The position numbers were made by a program, and so were the translations under genes. A DNA stretch of 64,000 bases, from contig JADGJL010000016.1 of the NCBI GenBank assembly GCA_027600665.1, positions 37,241 to 101,240 on the forward strand, written 5' to 3'. This document shows, in pieces, positions 4,953 to 44,930 of this stretch; positions within the stretch are counted from its first letter, which is position 1; the number at the start of each line of letters is the position of its first letter. The notes beneath the pieces were generated by a model. That model did no database searches. It saw only the letters and a program-made list of their open reading frames with translations, and was not told the origin of the DNA. The DNA comes from Irineochytrium annulatum. Lineage: Eukaryota; Chytridiomycota; Chytridiomycetes; Chytridiales; Chytridiaceae.

Positions 4953-6057
4953 TTTCGAAAGCGCAAAAAAGCCCTGCTGTCGACCACACAACCTCGTGAT
5001 AGTTTTACTTCATCTTTATATCACCGCAACGGGCATGTCTAACTTTTTCTTCTCTATTCCTCTTTTCAAACTCCTCGATCCCCCTCTGACCAGTGTTCAT
5101 CTTCGTGCTGTCCATAGTTTCTATTTGTAAGTAGCGTTAACATTCACAATGAAGGTTGCCTGGGAGGCGTAGCGTGCTGATAATTGAAAGTTCTTGCATA
5201 CTTCTTGCATACTTCGTAGCCTGTATTTGTGTTTTTTTCCTTTAAGCGAATGGTCCCAAGATAAAGCATAGCCTCGTTGCACCCTCTAGAAGAGCACTGT
5301 AGTAGTATTTGTCCACCGAGGTCGGGTTGGTGTCACTGTCAAGCTCGATAATCAGTAGGTACAGAGGGGGCGGGTTCCAAGGGTGCTGAAAACATCTTAG
5401 TTGAAGCCAACGATGCAGAATCTCTCACATTTGAGGCTGTCCGGGACCGCCACGAGTCCTCATAAGCCTTGGCGCCACCCATGTTCTCAGCGTACTTGCA
5501 CACTCGGATGTCACCTGAAATCTTGTCGTTGACGAGGAAGCTATTATTGTCCACGCTCCCGCGTCGCAACGCGACCGGTCGGAAGTTGAGCAGCAGGGCA
5601 GTATTATATTTGGGAACGGGCAGTAACTAAAAGCTTTATCCCAAATTTATCAGGCGGACCACCTTCGTGACGATTCACCCGTTCGAACGCCGAAGGAGGC
5701 GGGTAGAGATTTGGTATTAGTCCGAAGTGTTGGACCCTTGCTCCAGTTTCTCCCCTTTCAGCAAGTGCTTTTCTTCGACTTCGAGGTAGAATGTAGATGA
5801 AGCGTAGTCGATGAGGCGAAAGAAGAGACAACGGATAATAGCTATGGAAAAGTAAGAAAAGAGGAAATAAATGAGTAGAAAACAGCGTTCCAACGAACAA
5901 ACTAAAGCGATAACAGGACATGGTTCGACCTTTAAATAACTCGGAACAACACCTTAACAGAGTGTCCAGGGTCCCCCAATATATAAGTGGTTGATGGTAA
6001 CACAGATAACTTAAGAGGTGGAAGGTGACAGAAGCAGGAGGCAGATAATAATGCAAC
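4953..6057. other. intergenic region with a possible gene fragment
   Basis: Between the ERJ5-like start and the stop of the seven-span protein. It contains a short direct duplication of cttgcatactt near 5193-5217 and the weak candidate described at 5242-5611. Nothing else is recognisable. Confidence 0.5.
5242..5611 (-). CDS. possible 3' end of an unassigned gene
   Basis: Two open stretches on the minus strand can be joined by a GT-AG intron: about 5611 to 5429 (motifs NSFLVNDKISGDIRVCKY and AENMGGAKAYEDSW) and 5343 to 5242 (SDTNPTSVDKYYYSALLEG, then a stop). The composition looks like protein rather than random translation, but no start, upstream exon or family was recognised. It may be a decayed gene or the last exons of one whose 5' part I cannot see. 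Confidence 0.25.
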
Positions 6058-7211
6058 TTAAATAAGTTCCTGGGCATCGGCTGAGGGCGCCTGCATAATC
6101 GCGACCACGATGGTACCCGTGGCGATGGCGAGGGAGACCATGATGTAGAACATCTCGGTAATCGTGGTTGGTTTGAACCGAAGAATCTTGTCGTTCGGAA
6201 CAAGTGAGTAGACTGAAGAAGGTATGCAGAGTGTTAGGGAGATAAGATAAGGCACGACGGAGAACGCTAACTCACCAAAGTACCCGTATAGCGGGTAGGC
6301 GATCGCGTAGCAGAGCGAGAAGCAGATCTGGACCCACACCGACAGGTCGACGGTGGCGGCGATGTTCCCGAACGCATGAATGAAAGAGGCGGCGATCACG
6401 AGTTTCAGCCTGTTTGCGATGGGCGACGGCGACGGCGCGCGCTCGCCCGTCTCCACCTGCTCCGGCAAAAGCGGTTGCCCGTCGGCCGTGGGGGCCGGGA
6501 CGTCCTTGTTGGCGTGATACAGGCGGATAGCGTTGAAGAACGTGAGGCAGTCGAATGTCAGACCTGTTGAGTCGCCAATAGGTAAGACCTGGGAAGCACG
6601 TCGTCGTTCATGCCCCAAAAAAGACCGAACTCACCCTGCCACTTAAAGTACAGCCCGTCAACGGGCCAGCTCGCCAAGCTGCACACGCTCCACAAGCTAA
6701 GCACATAGAACCCCATGACGGGGAAGAGTACCTTGACGCCGTCCCTTCTCTGCAGCACCAGGCACATGACGACCTCGCTCGCGTTGTGCAGCGCCCCGAT
6801 GACCATGAACATCTTGCTGATGTCGAACACGAGGACTAGCACGGCCGACCCAATCGTCGCGGCAATGTACGCGGCCAGGATGCTCGCGACCAGGATCAGA
6901 GGGATCTGCTTCTCAAGCTGACCCGAGTGGGAGGGGAGAGCGACGGTGAGGGAGGCGGAGCGGCGGAGGGTTATGAGGTTAATTCGGAGGGCCAGAAGAA
7001 GTCCGAAGGTCATGGACACCACCGCGATGAAAGCGGCGGCGAGGGACTGGTTCAGGTCATAGCCTGTTGAATGACGAGGGCGAAGCGAAGGTGAATAAGC
7101 ATTGAGCATTAAGGTTATGAGAGATGGAGCAGCGAAGACCGTACCAGGGACGGGGATGCGCCAGGTCGGGAGGCCGACGATGCTAGTAGCCACGGGTGGG
7201 ACGGGGAACAT
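6058..7211 (-). CDS. seven-span membrane protein, unknown function
   Basis: Model: complement(join(6058..6212,6276..6563,6635..7063,7145..7211)), 312 residues, all junctions consistent. Hydrophobic segments include AAAFIAVVSMTFGLLLAL, IPLILVASILAAYIAATIGS, VLFPVMGFYVLSLWSVCS, LVIAASFIHAFG, VWVQICFSLCYAIAYPLY and EMFYIMVSLAIATGTIVVAI, about seven in all. The loop between the fifth and sixth is rich in Pro and charged residues (about 190-215). There is no signal peptide; the N-terminus is short and Pro-rich. No receptor or transporter signature was recognised. A receptor-like or small transporter-like role is possible but unsupported. Confidence 0.75.
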
Positions 7212-10379: not shown

Positions 10380-12833
10380 ATGCCTCTAGCCGCCCTGGGG
10401 GCGCTAGTCACCGCCTTCCACACCATCTACGAGGCTGTGGTTCAGAAAAAGGTCAACGAGAAGACCCTGGTGCTGCTCAAGGTGCGTTTTGGGCTTCTTG
10501 ATCTCGGCTGGTGCATCATCTGATTCCTTGTTGCCAACAGGATCGGGTTCAGATCCTGGAGAAGTCCATCAACCAAGTTGCCACGGAGTCCAAGGCAATC
10601 CAGCAGGTCTTCCAGGCCTTCCAGGAGCTGGTTCGAAGGTTCGAGGCCGCAATCCAGTCGGCCATCGTCCTTCTGGAGCAGCAGCAGAACTGCTTTCAGC
10701 TTTGCAAGTACCTGAATTGGCGCAGGCACTCGGAGGCGCTCGCGATGTGCTATCGTGAGTTGGAGGTATGCATGACCACTCATTTGATTATCCGGATCGG
10801 TTTTTTTGTAATTCTTTTGCGTGCTTGCGCAGGGCTGCATAAACGACTTGAACGTGATCATTTCCATGAAGACATACGCCAACTCTGTGCAGTCGGCCGA
10901 CACCGCGAACAACGTCAGGCAAACGCTGGCGATGGTGAACAACCTTGGCCTCAACCTCGCCCAGGCGCAAGCCGCCGACCGGAAGGTTAACGAAGCGCAG
11001 TACCGGGACATTGTCGCGCGGACGGAGGAGCAGGCGGCAAAGAACGCTGCCTTCTTTCAAAGGACAAACGCGAAGCTAGATGGCATCCGTGGCGACTTGC
11101 ACGCCGTGGGCGGGCAGGTTGACCGGTTGGGCAACCGCATAAATGCCGTGGATCAGAAGCTCGGACAGATGGACGGGCGGCTTGGCAGGATCGACAATGG
11201 CGTTAACGAACTCAACAACAAGATGGACGGCCTTGCGGTTAATGTTGCGAACGGGATGAACGACCTTCACGGCCACATGGACCACCTCGGCAAGCATCAG
11301 GAGTTGGCCTTCGCGGAGGTTCACGCGCACCTGAATGACGATGCGGATAGGACGCGGAAGGAGCTGGAGAAGATGCTCCTGGAGTTGAAGAGGGCCGGAA
11401 ATCAGGCGAAGCTGCTGCCACCTCTTGAAACCATCCACCCGGAGCAAGTCTTGGGCGAGTTGGAGCTCCTTTGCCCACGGCCACGGCAGAACATCTTCCG
11501 CATCACGATGAAGCGGAACAATACCGATGTCCGGTGCATTTTCAAGGCGATCAAGCCGGGCGCCATGCAAGAGATCCGACCGCAGGATCTCGCCCGCAGT
11601 GAGGCGGAGAGGCTCGCCCTGCTGAAGTTGACGTTCTCGCCTTACTTCCCGGATATTATCGGGAGTTTCCGCTACAACCCGTTCACCACCGGCTTCATCA
11701 CCGAAGGAGTCTGGTTTCATGCTGCGGACGAGCGGGCCATGACACTCCGCGAGTACCTGCAGGCCCACATCGTCGAGTGGTCCGGCCGCATCAGGCTCAT
11801 GCGCCAAGTTGCGTCCGCGGTCGCATTCATGCACTCGAAGACAAACTCGATCGTCCACGGCGGCTTAACGACGCGGGAGATCCTTGTAAGCAGGGACGCG
11901 AAAATGGGCGGCGATTTTATCAAGGTTATCGACTTTGACAAGGCCCTTCACGTCGGGGGCCAGAGCGCCATCATGGCCGATATCTCTTTTGATAGGGACG
12001 ACCACCCCTTCGTCGCGCCGGAGCTCTTCTCCAACAATCGCCCCGTCGTCACGTTCGCTTCCGACATCTTCGCCACCGGCACGATCCTCTGGGAGCTCGC
12101 CTGCAACTCCATCCCGTTCGAGCACATCCCCCCAGAGACGCCCATTCGGGACCTCATCGTCAGCGGCGTGCGCGAGCAGATTCCTCGCAACGGTATGAGT
12201 GCTTGCCCTGTCGACGTGGCGGACGCCGTCGCAAGGTGCTGGGAGCCCGTGCCGAGCGCCCGGCCAACGGCCGAAATGCTCGAGGACCAGCTCTTTAACG
12301 TTTACCGCGCGAACGTGGCGTCGACACCGCGCGTTAACGACGACTTTCTCGCGAAGATGGCGGCCGAGCCCGAGATGGTCCGGGTGCTGGGATGGCGGGA
12401 GATGTACCTCAGGGGCCGGATGGGCATGTCGGAGGACGACCTTCGGTGCGTCCGGTACGTGGCGGAGCTGCTGACGCACCCGCAATTCCCGCCGTCGTAT
12501 GGGAGGACACGACAGCAGAGGGTTGACGAGGCCGTCAGGCTGCTCGTGATCGCGGTGGATCAGTACAACGACGGCGGGGCGGCGGAATACCTGGCGTCGA
12601 AGCTCTATGGGGAGAACAAGGCGATGAAGGATCAGTGGATGATGAAGGCGAAGGACCTGTCGCATCCGGCCGCGTCGCTCGCGTGGGCGAAGGACGCATA
12701 CCAGAGGGGAGAGATTTCAAAGGAGAAGTACGTCGCGACGTACAATATGGTGAAAGAGCTCAACGACTTCAAGACGAGCTCGATGCAGAAGAGGATGGAG
12801 TCGAGGCGCTCGGAAGCGAGATTTAGTTCATGA
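10380..12833 (+). CDS. MLKL-like pseudokinase with N-terminal helical bundle and Sel1-like tail
   Basis: Model: join(10380..10481,10541..10765,10833..12833), 775 residues. Residues 1-135 form amphipathic helices in the pattern of the MLKL/HeLo-type four-helix bundle (ALGALVTAFHTIYEAV; VQILEKSINQVATESKAIQQ; CYRELEGCINDLNVII). Residues about 160-300 are a long coiled coil with L/I/V heptads. A TKL-type kinase fold follows (about 310-600) but lacks key residues: HRD is HGG (451-453), the catalytic Asp and the following K and N are missing, and DFG is DFD (476-478). APE (504-506) is kept, and a possible VAIK lysine lies in CIFKAIK (K347). The C-terminal 150 residues resemble Sel1 repeats (AAEYLASKLYG, HPAASLAWAKDAYQRG). 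The order bundle, brace, pseudokinase matches MLKL, a membrane-permeabilising effector of necroptosis. Cell-death function here is inference. Confidence 0.8.
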
Positions 12834-32558: not shown

Positions 32559-35500
32559 CTACAAATCTCGAACTGACGGCGCCTTCGACACCGGTTTGGA
32601 GGCCGGCTTTGATGCAGGCTTGGAGGATGGGCGCGTCGCGGGCTTCGACGCCGGTTTCGATGCTGGCCGTGTCGCAGGCTTCGACGATGGGCGAGTCGCC
32701 GGTTTTGAATTCGGCTGGGCCCCCGGAGGCGGCGTCCCAGCTGCGCTTGCTCTTTTCGACGCGCCCCTCTTCGGGGTTCCCCCCCCGCCTGGTGCAGTTG
32801 ACGGCGGCCGAGGGGTTAGTGCGTCGGCGGCGTCTTGGGCGGTGGGACGGTCGGTGGCGTCTTGGGTAGCAGGATGGACAGCCGCGGCTTCATTTGCGGC
32901 CTCAGCCGCTTCCGGCACCTTCTCTCCAGTCTCTGCCACCCCAGCCATCGCCTCCGTAGCCTCCGGAGCCGCCGCCCTCTCAGCATCCTCGTTGGTCTCA
33001 GCCGAAGCCTCCACAGCCTCCGTCCCGGGAGCAGGCACTTCCGAAGCTTCCGCATGCGCAGTTTCAGCAATCCCAGCCTCCTCAGTTCCCGGCTCCGTTC
33101 CCGACGTCTCCGGCACGGCCTCCGCGTTCGCCGTCCTCGCCGTATTCTCCGGGGCGGACATAGTGGTATCCGCAGCGGCTGCTTCGGCAGGAGTAGATTC
33201 GCCTAGAGCGGTATTACTGTCCCCAAACACAATATTAATTTCCCTCTCGGCCGATGGAGCAGAGTCGGAGCCATGCACGGCATTTTTGGAACCGTCCGTG
33301 CCGTACAATGCACGGATCGACTCGGGGGCCGACTCGCGCGCCTTTTCCGAGTTGGTGGGGCCGGCTAGGCTTCTCCATCCAGAGATGGCCTCATCTCCCT
33401 CTAGTTCGATAGCGTAGATAGGGGAGCTACCGACGTCATTAGTGGCCGGATTGTATACGGCAGTTCCCAATGCTTACCTGCTCATCCATGTGGTAAGATC
33501 CTCGTAGAAGGGTTTGCCAAGATGTTCTTTATAAAATTCCTCGGCTTTTGCCTTCGTAAACGTGACCTCCATCTCGCGGACGACTTTAAGCCCAGCCGCC
33601 AAAATCCTCTCCATAATCGAGTCTTTCTTCCCAGGGTACGCGTCGGGCTTGATGAGCGCTAAGGTCCGCTGCACTGTCTCCGTCTTTGGTGTTGACGCGT
33701 GAATTCTAACGGACCTCTGCCCATGGTCCACTGGCCGGTCGTCGCCCCCGAACAGGACCCGAATCTCCCGCGCCGCCGAGATGATTGAGTCGGAGCCATG
33801 CACGGCGTTGTGGGTACCATCCGTGCCGAAGAGCGCTCGGATCGATTCGGGTGCCGTCTCCCGCGCCTTGTCCGAGTTCGTCGGCCCCGCCAGCGCCCTC
33901 CACGCCTTTATACCGTCTACCTTCTCCAGCACGATACCGTATATTGGCGCCGAGCTCATCCACTCCGTCAACTCCTTGTAAAACGCTTTCTCCGCGTGCT
34001 CCTTGTAGAACTCCTCCGCCTTCTCCTTCGAAAGCGTCACAGCTGACTCCCTAATGACTCTAAACTTCTCCGCCCGGATGCGGTCCATAATCTCGGTTGT
34101 GTGGTCCGGGTGGGCATCGGGCTTGATCAAGGCCAACGTGCGCTCGAGCCTCGGCGCGTTGGGTGAAACGGCGCTGCCAAAGACGACGGCAATCTCGCGG
34201 GCGGCTGAGGCGAGCGAGTCGGACCCGTGGACGGCGTTTTGGGACCCGTCCGTGCCGTAGAGCGCGCGGATAGAGTCTGGGTGCGTCTCGCGGGCCTTCT
34301 CGGAGTTTGTCGGACCCGCGAGGGCACGCCAGCCGCTCACAGCCGACGTCCTCTGGAGGACAATGGCGTAAATCGGGGCGCTGCTCATCCACGTCGTCAA
34401 CGTCTCGTAAAACTCCTTGCCCAGATGCTCCTTGTAGAACTCCTCGGCTTTCTCCTTCGTGAACACGACCTCCGCCTCGTGGATGATGCTGAAACCGTCG
34501 GCCTTGATCTTCTCAATAACATCGTCTTTCTTAGCGGGGTAGATATCAGGCTTAATGAGCGCCAACGTGCGCTCCTCAGGGTGCGACGGAGTGTGATGCC
34601 TGGACTGCCTCGACTCCCTTCTGGATTCCCTATGCTTTGAGTGATGCGCGGCGGGCGGCGCCGGGGCCATCGCAGGGACGGTATCGCCAAAAATGACGCC
34701 GATCTCCCGAGCGGCGGACTCGGGCGAATCGGAGCCATGGACGGCGTTTTTCGAGCCATCTGTACCGTACAGCGCCCGAATCGTTTCCGGGGCGGTCTCC
34801 TTTGCCTTCTCCGAATTTGTCGGACCGGCGAGCGCCCTCCATCCGCTTATCGCAGATGCCTTTTCGAGAACCATCGCGTAAATCGGAGCGCCGCTCATCC
34901 AAGTGGTCAGGGTGTCGTAAAACTCCTTGCCCTTGTGCTCCTGGTAAAACTCCTCCGCCATCTCTTTCGTCATCGAAATCTCGGACTCCTGGACGACGGT
35001 GAACCCATCTGCCAGTATCTTCTCAAGGATCGCGTCCTTCTGCTGCGGGTACGCGTCGGGCTTGATGAGCGCCAACGTTCGTTCGGTGACATTATGAGCT
35101 TCCCCGTCACGGGCGGATTGGCTTGGGGCGGGAGCTGTGGGCGATATCGCATCTCCAAACATCACGCCGATTTCACGAGCAGCCGAGGCCGGCGAATCGG
35201 ACCCGTGAACCGCGTTCTTCGAACCGTCGGTTCCGAACAGCGCGCGAATAGACTCTGGTGACTCCTCGCGTGCCTTCTCCGAGTTCGTCGGCCCGGCTAG
35301 CGCTCTCCACCCCGTAATGCCCGACGCCTTTTGCAGCACTAACGCGTAAATCGGCGCCGAGCTCATCCACGTCGTGAGATCCTCATAGAAGCCCTTCCCT
35401 TCATGCTCTTTGTAAAACTCCTGAGCTTTCTCCTTCGTCATTTCAACCTCCGCCTCGTGGACGATTGTGAAACCGTCCGCCTTAATCTTCTCCAGGATCG

Positions 35501-38116
35501 CATCCTTATGCGCCGGGTACGCGTCCGGCTTAATTAGCGCCAGAGTTCTCTCCTCCGCTTGCTGCGCGGTCGGGGCTTGGGCGGAGATGGAGGCCGCGGC
35601 GGGGGCGACCGCAGACACAGCGTCCTCAAAAACGACCTTTATCTCCCTTTCAGCCGAGGCAGGCGAGTCCGAACCGTGAACGGCATTTTGGGAACCATCA
35701 GTGCCGTAGAGAGCCCGGATACTATATAAAATTAATCATTATGTCGCTTTCGCATCGTTATACCTTTCTGGGCTCTCTTCGCGCGCCTTTTCTGAGTTTG
35801 TGGGCCCTGCCAACTTTCGCCACCCAATAATAGCGTCGACCTTCTCCAAAACCATTGCATAAATGGGAGCGCTAATGACACAAGTAATTAACACAAACGA
35901 AGTAAATACATAAAGCTTGCATACCTGCTCATCCAGGTCGTGAGCGTCTCATAAAACGCCTTCCCTTCATGCTCTTGATAGAACTTTTGCGCGGTCTCTA
36001 GCGAGAATTGTACTTCCGCCTCGTGCACGATCGTAAATCCGTCGTTCCGGATCTTCTCCAAAATCGCCTCCTTCTTGTCCGGGTAAGCGTCCGGCTTAAT
36101 CAATGCCAGGGTCCTCTCCGTCGACGGCGTCACCGTCGCGGACGCTGCCATGTCTGCCTTCGAGGCGTATCTGCTGACCGCTCTACTCGCGGCCATCGAC
36201 GCCGTTCCAGACATCGTAAGTGTCGAGTTCCGGTTCGTTCCAGGGCGCGACTCAAACAGGGATACCATCGAGGCGCCGCTATATAGGTAATGGGGGAAGA
36301 TGTACTGGATCTCGCGAATCGCGTTCTCGATGGACTCGGAGCCATGGACGGCGTTTCGAATTCGATCGGTACCGTAAAGCGCGTGAAGACTGAAATCACC
36401 CATTAGACACACCACCGGGACAAAGGAGGGGTCTAAATACTCACGAAAGGGGGAACTTCTCCTTAGCTTCCTCCGGGTCGTCTGGACCCATAAGCTCCTG
36501 CCAAGCGTAAATAACGTCCTCTCCCTTCAGCACCAAGCAGACGACCGGCCCGCTAGTGATAAAGTTCACTAGGTTATGATACAAGTCCTCATCATCGGCC
36601 CAGGCCGCGTAAAGCTCCTGAGCGTTCTCGATCGGCATAATAATCTCCTCCCTCTTCTGTACTTTCAAGCCGCGGAGAATGATGCGGGCAATAATATCCT
36701 CGGCCACCTCGATCGCATCCGGCTTAATGATAGCTAGCGTCTTCTGAAGCGACGCGCTACGCGCGGCGAAAGCGTCGTGGCTCTCCGGGTTGAAGGGAAT
36801 CTCGGTAATGCCAGAGGAGCCCTCCCCGAAAAAGATGGCGAGCTCACGGGGGGCCGAGACGGTACCGTCCGATGCGTGAAAGGAGTTGATGAGCGAGTCG
36901 ATGCCGTATGCTGCGCGAAGACTTAAAAGTATGAAAGTTAGCGTTTACTCGCCGAAAGCAAATCTACCTTCGCGGTGCGTCCATCTTCGCCTGACGCGGA
37001 TCCTTCGGGCCGACGACCTCCCTCCACAATGCGATAATGTTGACCTTAGCCAACTCCATGGCTAGCACCGGCGAGCTGGAACAAGATTAGTCATCGACGA
37101 GATCGCATGATGCAAACACGTGCCTCGTGATGTAGTTGATCAGTCTATCGAACCACTCCTTCTCTGCATGCTCGCGGTACAGCTCTGTCGCCTGCTCCTT
37201 CGACAACCACACCTTCTTCATGGCCACGACCCTGACGCGGTGCCTATGAATAGTCGAGAGCACCTCGTCGATCACAGACGGACGCATGGCATCGGGTTTG
37301 ATCAGGGCCAGTGTTCGCTCGACCGGCGTTTCGCCGTCGATAGTGTCCTCATCGTAGAACTCCTCAGGCTTTGATTGCCCGTGTGACGAGTGTTTCGCCT
37401 CGACCTGTTCGGGCGTCCCCTTCTGCGACGACGCTCTCATAGCGAGACTCAGCGACTCTACTCCGGGCGCCGTAAGATCCATCTAGCATCCGACAATAAG
37501 GAACCAATTCCAATGCAAAAAGAGACACGGAACGTACCACCGGGTGAGGCTGGTTGTTCTTCTCCAGCTCTAATTGTTCCTTTATACCCTTCTCCACCAG
37601 AGGGGAATTAGCTCCACGAACTAGCTTCACGGGCACGCCATTCTAGAGAAATCGTGATTAGAGAGGGCACAGTCAGAGATAGATTTATCACTCACATAAA
37701 AAAATAAAAAGTGCGGGCATGATTTGTTTCTAAAGCTCGAAAGGGCTTCTATGTTATCGGACTGGGCCTGTATGAAGGATACGCTGTCACCATAGTCCAA
37801 CTTAAGACGCTTAAAGATGGTCGTCATCGGTTCGCAGGGTCCTGCGAACTTGGCTGGATGCAACAAAAGGCCTCGTTAGGATCTAACGCCTCCCAGTGAA
37901 CGGCATGTTGGAGTGATCAACTACTCACAGAATACATCGAACACTGTTAATTCGGATCAGCGCAGTTAGCACCATGATCGGAAGCCGAAAGCAAAGAAGT
38001 TGACTGTCCAGGGACCCACCCTTCAATCCGGGCTTGTTGATGTGAGTGGCGAAGTCGACATCGGTCAAGGCGTTGGACGTGGCCGCGATCTCCACCTTCT
38101 TGGCGTGCGCCGACAT
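32559..38116 (-). CDS. NME8: thioredoxin-like plus eight nucleoside-diphosphate-kinase domains, NME8/TXNDC3-like flagellar protein
   Basis: Model: complement(join(32559..33426,33478..35721,35764..35871,35925..36389,36445..36921,36968..37075,37124..37482,37538..37642,37696..37853,37929..37943,38020..38116)), 1,667 residues. Residues 1-115 are a thioredoxin fold (KPGLKVFDVF, DSVSFIQAQSDN, CPHFLFFYNGVPV) whose WCGPC site reads FAGPC. Eight NDK domains follow, starting near 180, 340, 531, 688, 844, 1014, 1157 and 1315. Domains 3-8 carry RTLALIKPD, GWRALAGPTNSEKA-type and NAVHGSDS motifs with the active-site His; domains 1 and 2 are diverged (NSFHASD, NAVHGSES). A 215-residue Ala/Pro/Glu tail ends in SKPATRP repeats. 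Trx plus three NDK is the NME8 / sea-urchin outer-dynein-arm IC1 layout, so an axonemal role is likely. The intron after 37124 is GC-AG. Confidence 0.9.
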
Positions 38117-40184: not shown

Positions 40185-43114
40185 TTACCAGTATGTCACT
40201 GGAGGCACCAAGTCGCTGTTACCACCTGCCGCTAGGGCCTTGTTCAGAACAACCCCAAGCAAGTTCGGCATATGATCAGGACCCATCGTCGCGCTTATGA
40301 TGATTTCGTTGATATCCGCTGGGTCCGCCCAGACGGCGTGGTAAAACGTCTTTCTCCTCCTCCGGGTGCCCAGCCTTAGCCGTCGCCGCCGCCTCATCCG
40401 ATCCCTGACGGCCCCGCCGCCCCTCCGCCCCGATTCCGCCCGATCCTGTTCATCCTCATCCCCGCTATCATCCTCCTCATCATAACTCTCGTCGCCACCC
40501 TGGTGAGTTGGGTCCACAAGCGCGCCCGTCCCGTCCACGAGCCTGCGCTCCTTCACGAAGTATAATACGCGTCCGGGCACGTGCATGACTACCGTCTCGG
40601 GCCGCACGAGTTCCTCCGATGCACCCGCCCTCAGCGGCACCGCGTCGTTCCCCGCAGTGGACTCTTGGCCGTCCACGCTCGCCCGTTCAACCGACCTGAA
40701 CCCTACCCCAACACCACCGCCGAACTCCTCATCCGCCGACGACCTCGGTGGCATCACTGGCCCCGCGGCCGTTAAGAACCCGTCCCTGCTACCGGTGCCC
40801 GTAAGCTGCCGATCCTCCCCATGGCCCGCCCCCACATCCCACCATTCATCGTCCCTCGCATCTAGGACGCCTGCGGCTTTGACGCCTAGCAAGTCCGAGA
40901 GCAAGAAGCCGCCAAGAACCTCAATTTTCCTCCTTCGGCATCCGGCGACGGCGTCTTTTACCTGCCGCTTAAGCATATGGATGGTGCGCCTATTCAATCG
41001 GGGCACTACGTCGTCGCCGAGGACGATGGAGGTGCAGAAGGAGGAAAAGAAGGGGACGCCTTCCGGCGTGGTGATGCAGCCAGGGGGTGAGTACGCGTAG
41101 CATATCGCGTCGTGACCCTGCACGCGGAGAAGGTATGCTAAGAGGGAAGCCGCGCCCTGTGTGTTACGTTGAGATTAGACCGTAAGCTTATGGGATGAAG
41201 AAACAATGAGATCAACCGCTCCAAGGGAATGCCCGCAAATAACTAGGCTGTATCCCGCGTATTGACTACTCGGATTCTTGAGCAGCTCTTCTAGCAGGCC
41301 GGCAATTTCATCCCGGATGTGCCCCGCCGTCATTAACATCCCCGCATGCGTCTTCGCGGCGATCGGCGGCCCGCCTGGCGTCAGCGGCGGCAGCTGGATA
41401 TTTGAAAGATCGCAATTCAGGTCGACCAAAACTAGAGGAAGACAAATTGGACATTGTACTGTTTAGCGAAGTCCTTACCATCTGCCGTGGACAACGTGCC
41501 CCGGACGGCAACGACGACCGCCTTCTTGTCGTGATCCAGCGCGACGATATAAGGCGAGCGGAAGATGCCGTTATCTAAGGAGATTGCCAACAAGTCCGTA
41601 TGCCGATTCCGCGGAGGTCGTTCCACGACACAGCAGAAGGGCCAGCCGGGCTTCCCTAAATGAGTCCTGACCGAATCGGCCACATTTTGCGCGGAGGGCG
41701 GGCCGCAGAACTGCGGACAAAGAAGGTACTTCACGCCAACGTAAAAGTTCGACAACATGTACAAAGGAAGACCTAACCATTAATAAGAAAACTGAAATCC
41801 AATTCACTGTACAATACGAACCATAAATGGCTTCAGCGTACTGAAAGTAATACACAATCTCCGCAAGCTCCTCCTTGGTAACCGGCGGCCGGCTCTTAAC
41901 GCTACCATCCCTCTCTGGCCCGGCGCTCATCAACGGTATCTCCCCATCCCGCCTCGAGCTCGGCATCGGGCTCGGCTTCCGCTGCGAAGCTTTGCTAAAC
42001 TGCCGCGCCGCCTCAACGCCATTCGCATATGCCACCTCTCCGTCCTCGTCCCGATCTTCCGCGATCCGAGCCACAGCCACCCCCGACGGCACGTTACTGG
42101 AATGGTTGGAGCGCAATGTCGAGGTAGAAGGGCTCTGGCGGGAAAGGCTGGCGCGGTTTCGCTCCTCACGGCGCGCGCGTTCAAGGTGTTGCTTCCGCCG
42201 GACGTAGAGCAACCCTACGAGAACCTGAATTCGCCGGAACGTCAAAAAAACCGTTCCCTATTAGCAAACTGCAGAATACCCACATCACTCGCGACCGTAT
42301 CCGCGTCCCTAAAGAAGTCCGCAAAAACCTTTGCTACATCCATCAACACATCGCGATCCCCAATCCTCGCTCGATCCTTGTGCCCAAAACACCAAAACTC
42401 GAGAGTCTTGACCCATTTCTCCCCTCCGTCGTCTTCTAGGGCGATGTCGATTGGTATGGACCGCACGTACGTGAAGAGCGCGAAGAGGAGCCAGCTGACG
42501 AGCGAGAGAAAGATCAGGGAGACGCTGATCCGGATGATGACGGCCACGGCGGGGTTGTCCGCGCAATTGAGGGGCGAGGGGCCGGCGATAACGTAGAAAC
42601 CAAGGCCTTGGGTTACCTGGTTTAGTGAGATTCGCAAGGCAGGCAAAGCAAGGACTCACGAAGTCGAGGAAGACGAGGAAGGCGTGAACGGGGACCCAGA
42701 GCCTCAAAGACTGACGCGGCCGGTCATCAGACACCTACAGCATCAAATAAGAATACATGCCAACAACGCGTTACTCTCACCGTGCCCCTTAACGAGACAA
42801 ACCCAATGACAAACTCGACCACAAGCTGGCACGCGCATATCGCCGCCCCGGCGTCCAGATACACAAACAGGAGGTACCGCGGCTGACATCCGGAGGAGCT
42901 TGAATTCCCCTCCGGGATCACGACGGTCGCGAGGATGGAGACGAACACGATCAGCCAGGCGCCGTGGATCATAAAGCCGATCATCGCGGGGAGGAGCAGG
43001 TCATCGCCGGCCACCTTGAAGAGACGTTCACGTGCTTAACCATCGACCGTATGGGAGAGAAAAGGCGGAAACGAATACCTGCCATCGGCGCCCGAAGGCC
43101 GTTAAGGCCGGCAT
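40185..43114 (-). CDS. sn1-specific diacylglycerol lipase (class 3 lipase with four N-terminal spans)
   Basis: Model: complement(join(40185..41156,41217..41431,41479..41772,41822..42224,42284..42616,42660..42734,42781..43014,43079..43114)), 853 residues. The N-terminus MPALTAFGRRWQVAGDDLLL matches the start of diacylglycerol lipases. Four transmembrane helices follow (for example WLIVFVSILATVV, IRISVSLIFLSLVSWLLFAL), then a charged linker and the lipase domain with VVVAVRGTLSTADVLVDLNCD and the nucleophile elbow CGHSLGAGAAS (Ser about 527). SIVLGDDVVPRLN supplies the likely Asp and GPDHMPNLL the likely His. A large Gly/acidic/basic insert (about 620-790) interrupts the C-terminal part. The enzyme releases 2-monoacylglycerol from diacylglycerol at the plasma membrane. 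Confidence 0.9.
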
Positions 43115-43931: not shown

Positions 43932-44341
43932 TCAAACTCCCGCAGCGGCCATAAAGCGATCACCCCTTCGCACGATGAAGTCCTCCGCACTCCCCTGGTC
44001 CCTCCTGACGGCCGCCGCCGTGGCCCCTGCCGTGGCCACTGCCGGCGCTGCCGACATCATGGGCCCAAAGTCGCCGCCGCCGGTCGTGGTGTTATCGTTC
44101 AGGCCGGCCAGCGCAGCCATCCTGGATTGGTAAACCAGGAGGGCGAGGTATGCGAGCCCTGCGACGGCGGCGCTGAGGGCGATCATGGCCTTGGTCCAGA
44201 AGAGAGCGTTGCAGAGCATGATGCGGGTTGACCTGTGGGAGAGTGATGATGACGTTAGATAGGCGGACGCGTGAAGCTCGATGGGAGCGGAAGGAGCGGA
44301 AATCATCGGGGCAACATTGAGAGAACAGCGTACCTGGCCAT
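43932..44341 (-). CDS. small single-span membrane protein, unknown
   Basis: Model: complement(join(43932..44232,44334..44341)), 102 residues; the first exon holds only ATG GCC AG. After MARSTRIMLCNALFW there is one transmembrane helix (AMIALSAAVAGLAYLALLVY), then an Asn/Thr/Gly linker, an Ala/Val-rich stretch and a charged end (RRDQGSAEDFIVRRGDRF). The positive N-terminus and single early helix would suit a small mitochondrial or ER membrane subunit, but I do not recognise the family. Confidence 0.6.
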
Positions 44342-44930
44342 AGTGGTGATGCGGAGTCGGAAGAGGAGGACGGTGGAGGGTGCGTGGGGTCCGGGTGGTG
44401 ATATGACGGTGAGGTGGTAACGCCAAGTCAATCGAAGCAATGGAAGCCGGGGTCGCACAATGCAAAGGACGGACTGAAGTGTCCGACTCTTGACACTTCC
44501 CTTGCCTGACACTTACACGATGCCGTTGTCCGTCATCAGCGACGTTTAAGCGGGACGAGCCTGGCAATTTGAAAGCGCGTGCGAGTTGGTCAGTGATTGA
44601 ACATGTTTCTTCGGGGCGGACGGCATGTGCAACGAAATTGCGGGACTTGTTTCCTTCGTGTAATTTAACACCGCCTGGACGTTCATTCTCTACTTCCCCA
44701 GGATGGCTACTTTAATTACTTTCTTGTATATTAGCTATGTATGTCATTTATTGGCGCTTTGTATTCGGTCGCTGACCTACCAAGCCGCCCGATCCTACAA
44801 TGATGCCATATATAATTAAGGATTGATAATGCCTGCTATGAAAATGATTTGTGAATCAGCCATACAACTGCCTGTCGCTCCCAACACCCGAATATAATCA
44901 CTCGGTTGGCACGCTATCCGATCGCACACG
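44342..44930 (-). other. intergenic region
   Basis: Lies between the small membrane-protein start and the stop of MRM1, both on the minus strand. AT-rich from 44690; no gene recognised. Confidence 0.5.

Follow-up and report, generated by a model that had tools for sequence, protein, structure and literature searches.

A chytrid pseudokinase family with an MLKL-like order of domains

The gene, its neighbours and its family

The window analysed here is a stretch of 64,000 nucleotides of contig C170 in the 26.9 Mb Irineochytrium annulatum assembly. Its forward strand carries a gene at 10380..12833, for which the splice model gave three exons (10380-10481, 10541-10765, and 10833-12833), two introns, both GT-AG, and a product of 775 amino acids. 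A protein search showed that the product is identical over its full length to P0001, a public protein of I. annulatum (Chytridiaceae) that is filed under the name 'Leucine-rich repeat serine/threonine-protein kinase 2'. The kinase-like domain was the sole Pfam family over cut-off in the protein (70.3 bits for PF07714 and 61 for PF00069), and Pfam gave no match to a leucine-rich repeat at E<=1. Since there is no such match and the catalytic residues are missing, the public name is misleading, and the present analysis corrects it.

The neighbours of the gene in the window are of ordinary kinds and include, by Pfam, an ACT-domain protein, homocitrate synthase, a RhoGAP, and a carboxypeptidase. 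A preliminary description of this DNA, made from the letters of the sequence, had suggested a look among the neighbours for Toll- or NLR-type partners. Neither these nor other immune partners were found by Pfam in 20 of the 23 non-overlapping open frames of at least 220 aa in the window; the scan left aside the window gene and the frames at 41796-42593 and 43935-44711. The minus strand of the window also holds a poly-NDK at 32562-35735, with six nucleoside diphosphate kinase domains in a 753-aa frame and a partial one in the adjoining frame.

Protein searches placed P0001 in a family of five. P0002 is a paralogue in the I. annulatum genome with 73% identity; its gene lies on a separate contig of the assembly and has introns placed as in the window gene. 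P0003 is one protein of Dinochytrium kinnereticum, and P0004 and P0008 are two proteins of Chytridium lagenaria. All three genera belong to the Chytridiaceae. Five members are a lower bound, the alignment search having been crowded by bacterial kinases to the point that P0003, P0004, and P0008 were not relisted. The relatives in chytrids of the same family, together with a paralogue on another contig with matching intron places, led us to reject contamination of the assembly; pseudogene decay was ruled out by the open frame and by an overall dN/dS of 0.38 between the two paralogues.

The comparison of P0001 with P0002 was also made part by part, and gave a dN/dS of 0.26 for the pseudokinase, 0.14 for the coil, and 1.2 for the linker. 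The nearly frozen coil stands beside a variable linker (10881-11045). Identity between the paralogues was 93.6% in the coil (residues 181-258), the highest of all parts, and 62.4% in residues 1-125. Judged by these substitution ratios, the pseudokinase domain and the coil are under purifying selection, and the N-terminal domain, the coil, and the pseudokinase are kept together across the three genera.

Domains of the window protein

In the preliminary description, the protein had been read as an MLKL-like architecture made up of a helical bundle, a coiled-coil brace, a pseudokinase, and a Sel1-like tail. The gene, a homology of the MLKL_N type, the coil, and the pseudokinase were all recovered; the reading was confirmed only in part, with neither the bundle fold nor the Sel1 tail established.

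The MLKL_N-type helical domain corresponds to residues 1-125 (10380..10880, plus strand, introns inside) and was assigned by a profile search of PDB with the family and by Pfam MLKL_N. Two of the relatives, P0003 (47.9 bits) and P0004 (46.8 bits), scored over the MLKL_N cut-off of 27. Residues 1-135 of the window protein reached 23.3 bits, under the cut-off, and the whole proteins scored 16.5 bits (window protein) and 11.8 bits (P0002, E 0.17). Two coil families outscored MLKL_N on the whole window protein and were likewise under cut-off. HeLo (PF14479) was not among the Pfam families of the window protein at E<=1. The claim of an MLKL-type N-terminus thus stands for the family profile and for P0003 and P0004, and falls short of the cut-off for the window protein taken alone. 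The hydropathy maximum of the N-terminus, 1.61, was found in a 19-residue span starting at residue 3.

A variable linker (residues 126-180, 10881..11045, plus strand) is followed by a heptad coiled coil (residues 181-258, 11046..11279, plus strand), in which the hydrophobic rhythm is 3.5 residues; none of 5000 shuffles was equally periodic. A long coiled coil between the N-terminal domain and the kinase-like domain, as first described, is therefore borne out. The region corresponding to the coil is shorter in the Dinochytrium and Chytridium relatives than in the window protein. The coil is placed like the brace of MLKL and may be called brace-like, a putative role suggested by its position in the sequence.

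The pseudokinase domain covers residues 305-600 (11418..12305, plus strand), with the best PF07714 stretch at 413-596. The translation agreed with the motifs originally reported: HGG (11856..11864) replaces HRD, DFD (11931..11939) replaces DFG, and APE (residues 504-506, 12015..12023) is kept. In the alignment of the five family members, the beta3 lysine (Lys347, 11544..11546) and the alphaC glutamate (Glu368, assigned by alignment, 11607..11609) were invariant. The catalytic aspartate was absent in all five (HGG in three, HCG in two), the catalytic-loop asparagine was replaced in all five, and DFG was altered in all five to DFD or DLD, with the aspartate of this position retained throughout. 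No glycine loop was recognisable in this alignment. Relatives that keep HRD and DFG would be expected of an ordinary kinase family; either motif was kept in none of the five members.

By kinase-domain sequence profile, the nearest proteins were TYK2, EGFR, ABL1, RIPK1, and KIT, and MLKL was absent from the best 60 of 1970 matches. A Foldseek search with the model of the Dinochytrium protein placed MLKL in 10 of the 50 matches listed, amid many active kinases and with an rmsd of 12-13; one of these ten was chain B of the RIP3-MLKL complex.

The C-terminal tail (residues 601-775, 12306..12830, plus strand) has no Pfam family near cut-off and includes a putative Sel1-like helical stretch (residues 668-750, 12507..12755, plus strand). 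Of the tail originally described as Sel1-like, a Sel1-type fold received moderate support, from weak structure models, and a sequence match did not emerge: the Sel1 profile (PF08238) matched none of the five family tails at E<=10. The profile comparison with the Rhizophagus tail was weak as well (probability 0.8). Genome-wide, with 150 of 188 candidates scored, 124 Sel1 matches were listed, none of them on the contig of the window gene or of the P0002 gene.

Genomic setting and possible roles

The I. annulatum genome contains a further MLKL_N protein, with intact kinase motifs, on the minus strand of contig C215 (2929-4383 and on; splice model and Pfam). Its MLKL_N match of 43.3 bits is over cut-off and covers only positions 49-141 of the 142 in the profile; its kinase domain is full (186 bits), with a GGFGEV glycine loop, HGD (HGDLKAIN), DFG, and APE. 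The MLKL_N search of the genome returned this protein alone and overlooked the window gene, and the count of MLKL_N proteins is therefore a lower bound. Profile searches of the genome, exon by exon, gave four NACHT matches and eleven TIR_2 matches, ten of the latter over cut-off, with no match to NB-ARC and none to HeLo at E<=0.1; because of this exon-by-exon reading, genes may be missed. On contig C388 (1885-3030, plus strand), TIR_2 is followed by NACHT in one 914-aa open frame, as in a receptor of the TIR-NACHT type. Contig C478 has, on its minus strand (5488-6279), a TIR_2 match with one internal stop near a Sel1 match in the same frame, with an open-frame length of 426 aa. Both the C215 kinase and the C388 frame are unlinked to the window gene. 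The C215 kinase and the NACHT and TIR_2 genes make an innate-immunity-like setting possible and nothing beyond that.

We put the chance that the window protein is a fungal MLKL-like membrane effector at about even, and infer from this reading that it might act on membranes, kill, and serve in immunity. In such an effector, the pseudokinase would be a nucleotide- or phosphorylation-sensitive switch that keeps the helical domain shut via the coil. The release signal would perhaps come from an active kinase, for which the C215 protein is a candidate upstream partner, or from a protein that binds the Sel1-like tail, the tail being a docking site. The coil would drive the formation of oligomers, and the hydrophobic first helix would act on the membrane, leading to cell death or to membrane signalling. 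An extension of this scheme, which we regard as unlikely, is a two-part necroptosis-like circuit, in which the C215 kinase would switch on the window protein and P0002, perhaps below TIR-NACHT receptors; a bundle executioner switched by a kinase would then be older than the divergence of zoosporic fungi from other fungi, and would be the defence of a single-celled fungus.

It is also quite conceivable, and we hold it as a tentative alternative, that the protein is a non-lytic scaffold associated with the membrane or the cytoskeleton, in which the coil and the helical domain would localise and oligomerise the protein, and the pseudokinase and the Sel1-like tail would dock partners. Homology to MLKL is by itself no proof of killing, the presence of MLKL_N on the C215 protein with its intact kinase motifs suggests a module for targeting or assembly, and the coil is the best conserved part between the paralogues. 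On the other hand, according to the available part of PMC12881547, MLKL, HET-S, and plant ZAR1, which belong to the superfamily or are related to it, act on membranes; the same activity of other members is a hypothesis there.

We see very little likelihood that the N-terminus is no more than a generic helical coil whose likeness to MLKL comes from its composition. Such a coil would fit the weak scores of the window protein and P0002, and the profile comparisons of the N-terminus with those of the Rhizophagus protein (probability 36, 31 columns) and the C215 protein (probability 9) were weak. The N-terminus of the window protein alone, when compared with PDB, gave no MLKL among three matches at E<=10. 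The predicted full-length models, built from 5 and 6 sequences, had a mean pLDDT of 41.9 (pTM 0.28) and 50.1 (pTM 0.31), respectively. Their N-termini were helical, yet of low confidence, and among the matches listed in the fold searches with the models there were no MLKL rows spanning the N-terminus, which excludes nothing. As this part of the models is unreliable, the bundle claim rests on sequence homology. That homology argues against a generic coil: among the families listed at E<=10, MLKL_N alone was shared by every N-terminus of the five, its best E being 8e-15, whereas the reversed N-termini of three of them gave no MLKL_N match (0/3; best chance matches at E 0.0025-0.0042). Furthermore, the five-protein N-terminal profile had 22 matches at E<=10 among all PDB sequences, and the top five were MLKL N-terminal domains (E 0.0089-0.016), the best of them colinear (profile 7-123 against residues 4-119); a sixth MLKL chain followed at E 0.12. 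With the best unrelated match close behind at E 0.04, the margin of MLKL is modest. Homology of the N-terminus to MLKL_N is thus supported at the level of the family.

A signalling kinase, with a catalytic domain that works in some unusual way and is not a switch, is a very improbable reading. In its favour, all five members retain the beta3 lysine, the alphaC glutamate, and the aspartate at the DFG position; against it, the catalytic aspartate and the catalytic-loop asparagine are replaced in every one and the glycine loop is not recognisable.

Should the helical domain be membrane-active, as in the effector reading, chytrids would provide an executioner switched by a kinase from beyond the animals, plants, and filamentous fungi. 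Such a case would bear on the question of whether death of the MLKL type is ancient in the fungal and animal lineage or arose by repeated assembly.

Comparison with known MLKL-type proteins

Animal MLKL consists of a helical N-terminal domain, a helical brace, and a pseudokinase; the human protein reportedly perturbs budding yeast (PMC10205182). The window protein has its domains in the same order, its family matches MLKL in the N-terminal profile search, and the fold searches with the models match the MLKL pseudokinase, among other kinases. Unlike animal MLKL, it has a long heptad coil and an extra C-terminal tail, and its kinase domain is nearest to other proteins by sequence in the best 60 of the 1970 matches. 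Plant MLKLs join a helical domain of the HeLo type to a pseudokinase, a pairing that the window protein would share. The available text of PMC12881547 mentions plant MLKL homologues and treats animal MLKL as the executioner of necroptosis. Together with the part of PMC9815663 at hand, it assigns the HeLo, HeLo-like, and Goodbye-like domains of fungi to the superfamily that also includes the MLKL bundle. The window protein differs from the fungal HeLo proteins in having no HeLo match (E<=1), and the genome likewise has none (E<=0.1).

A parallel in domain content is the Glomeromycotina MLKL family with Sel1 repeats (TCDB 1.A.105), which the accessible portion of PMC8778642 reports as exclusive to Glomeromycotina. 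Rhizophagus irregularis P0006 has the domains of that family and, like the window protein, carries MLKL_N (33.0 bits) and a kinase-like domain, followed in P0006 by Sel1 repeats. The two proteins are remote relatives, with 24% identity across 25% of the query, and differ in that P0006 has true Pfam Sel1 repeats and, by alignment, HHD at the HRD position, with the aspartate kept, and NFS for DFG.

Other fungal MLKL-like proteins are on record. The section of PMC11476962 available names a Basidiobolus MLKL, places fungal MLKL in a tree, and has a rotifer MLKL that clusters with fungal and plant MLKL and whose N-terminal domain shows necroptotic activity under some condition; PMC9815663, in the part at hand, reports 600 MLKL-like sequences of basidiomycetes at the N-termini of NLRs. 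The initial statement that such an effector in a zoosporic fungus would be new was thus too strong, fungal MLKL-like proteins, some with Sel1 or kinase or pseudokinase domains, having been published (PMC8778642, PMC12881547, and PMC11476962, as far as their available parts go). Among the open-licence papers listed in literature searches, no title or abstract opening reports this chytrid family. The present proteins extend the fungal MLKL family past the Glomeromycotina limit given in the portion of PMC8778642 cited above, a limit that the Basidiobolus protein in the corresponding section of PMC11476962 had already passed. Given these published proteins and no chytrid report among the papers listed, we class the family of the window protein as a new and conserved branch, in chytrids, of a kind already known from fungi.
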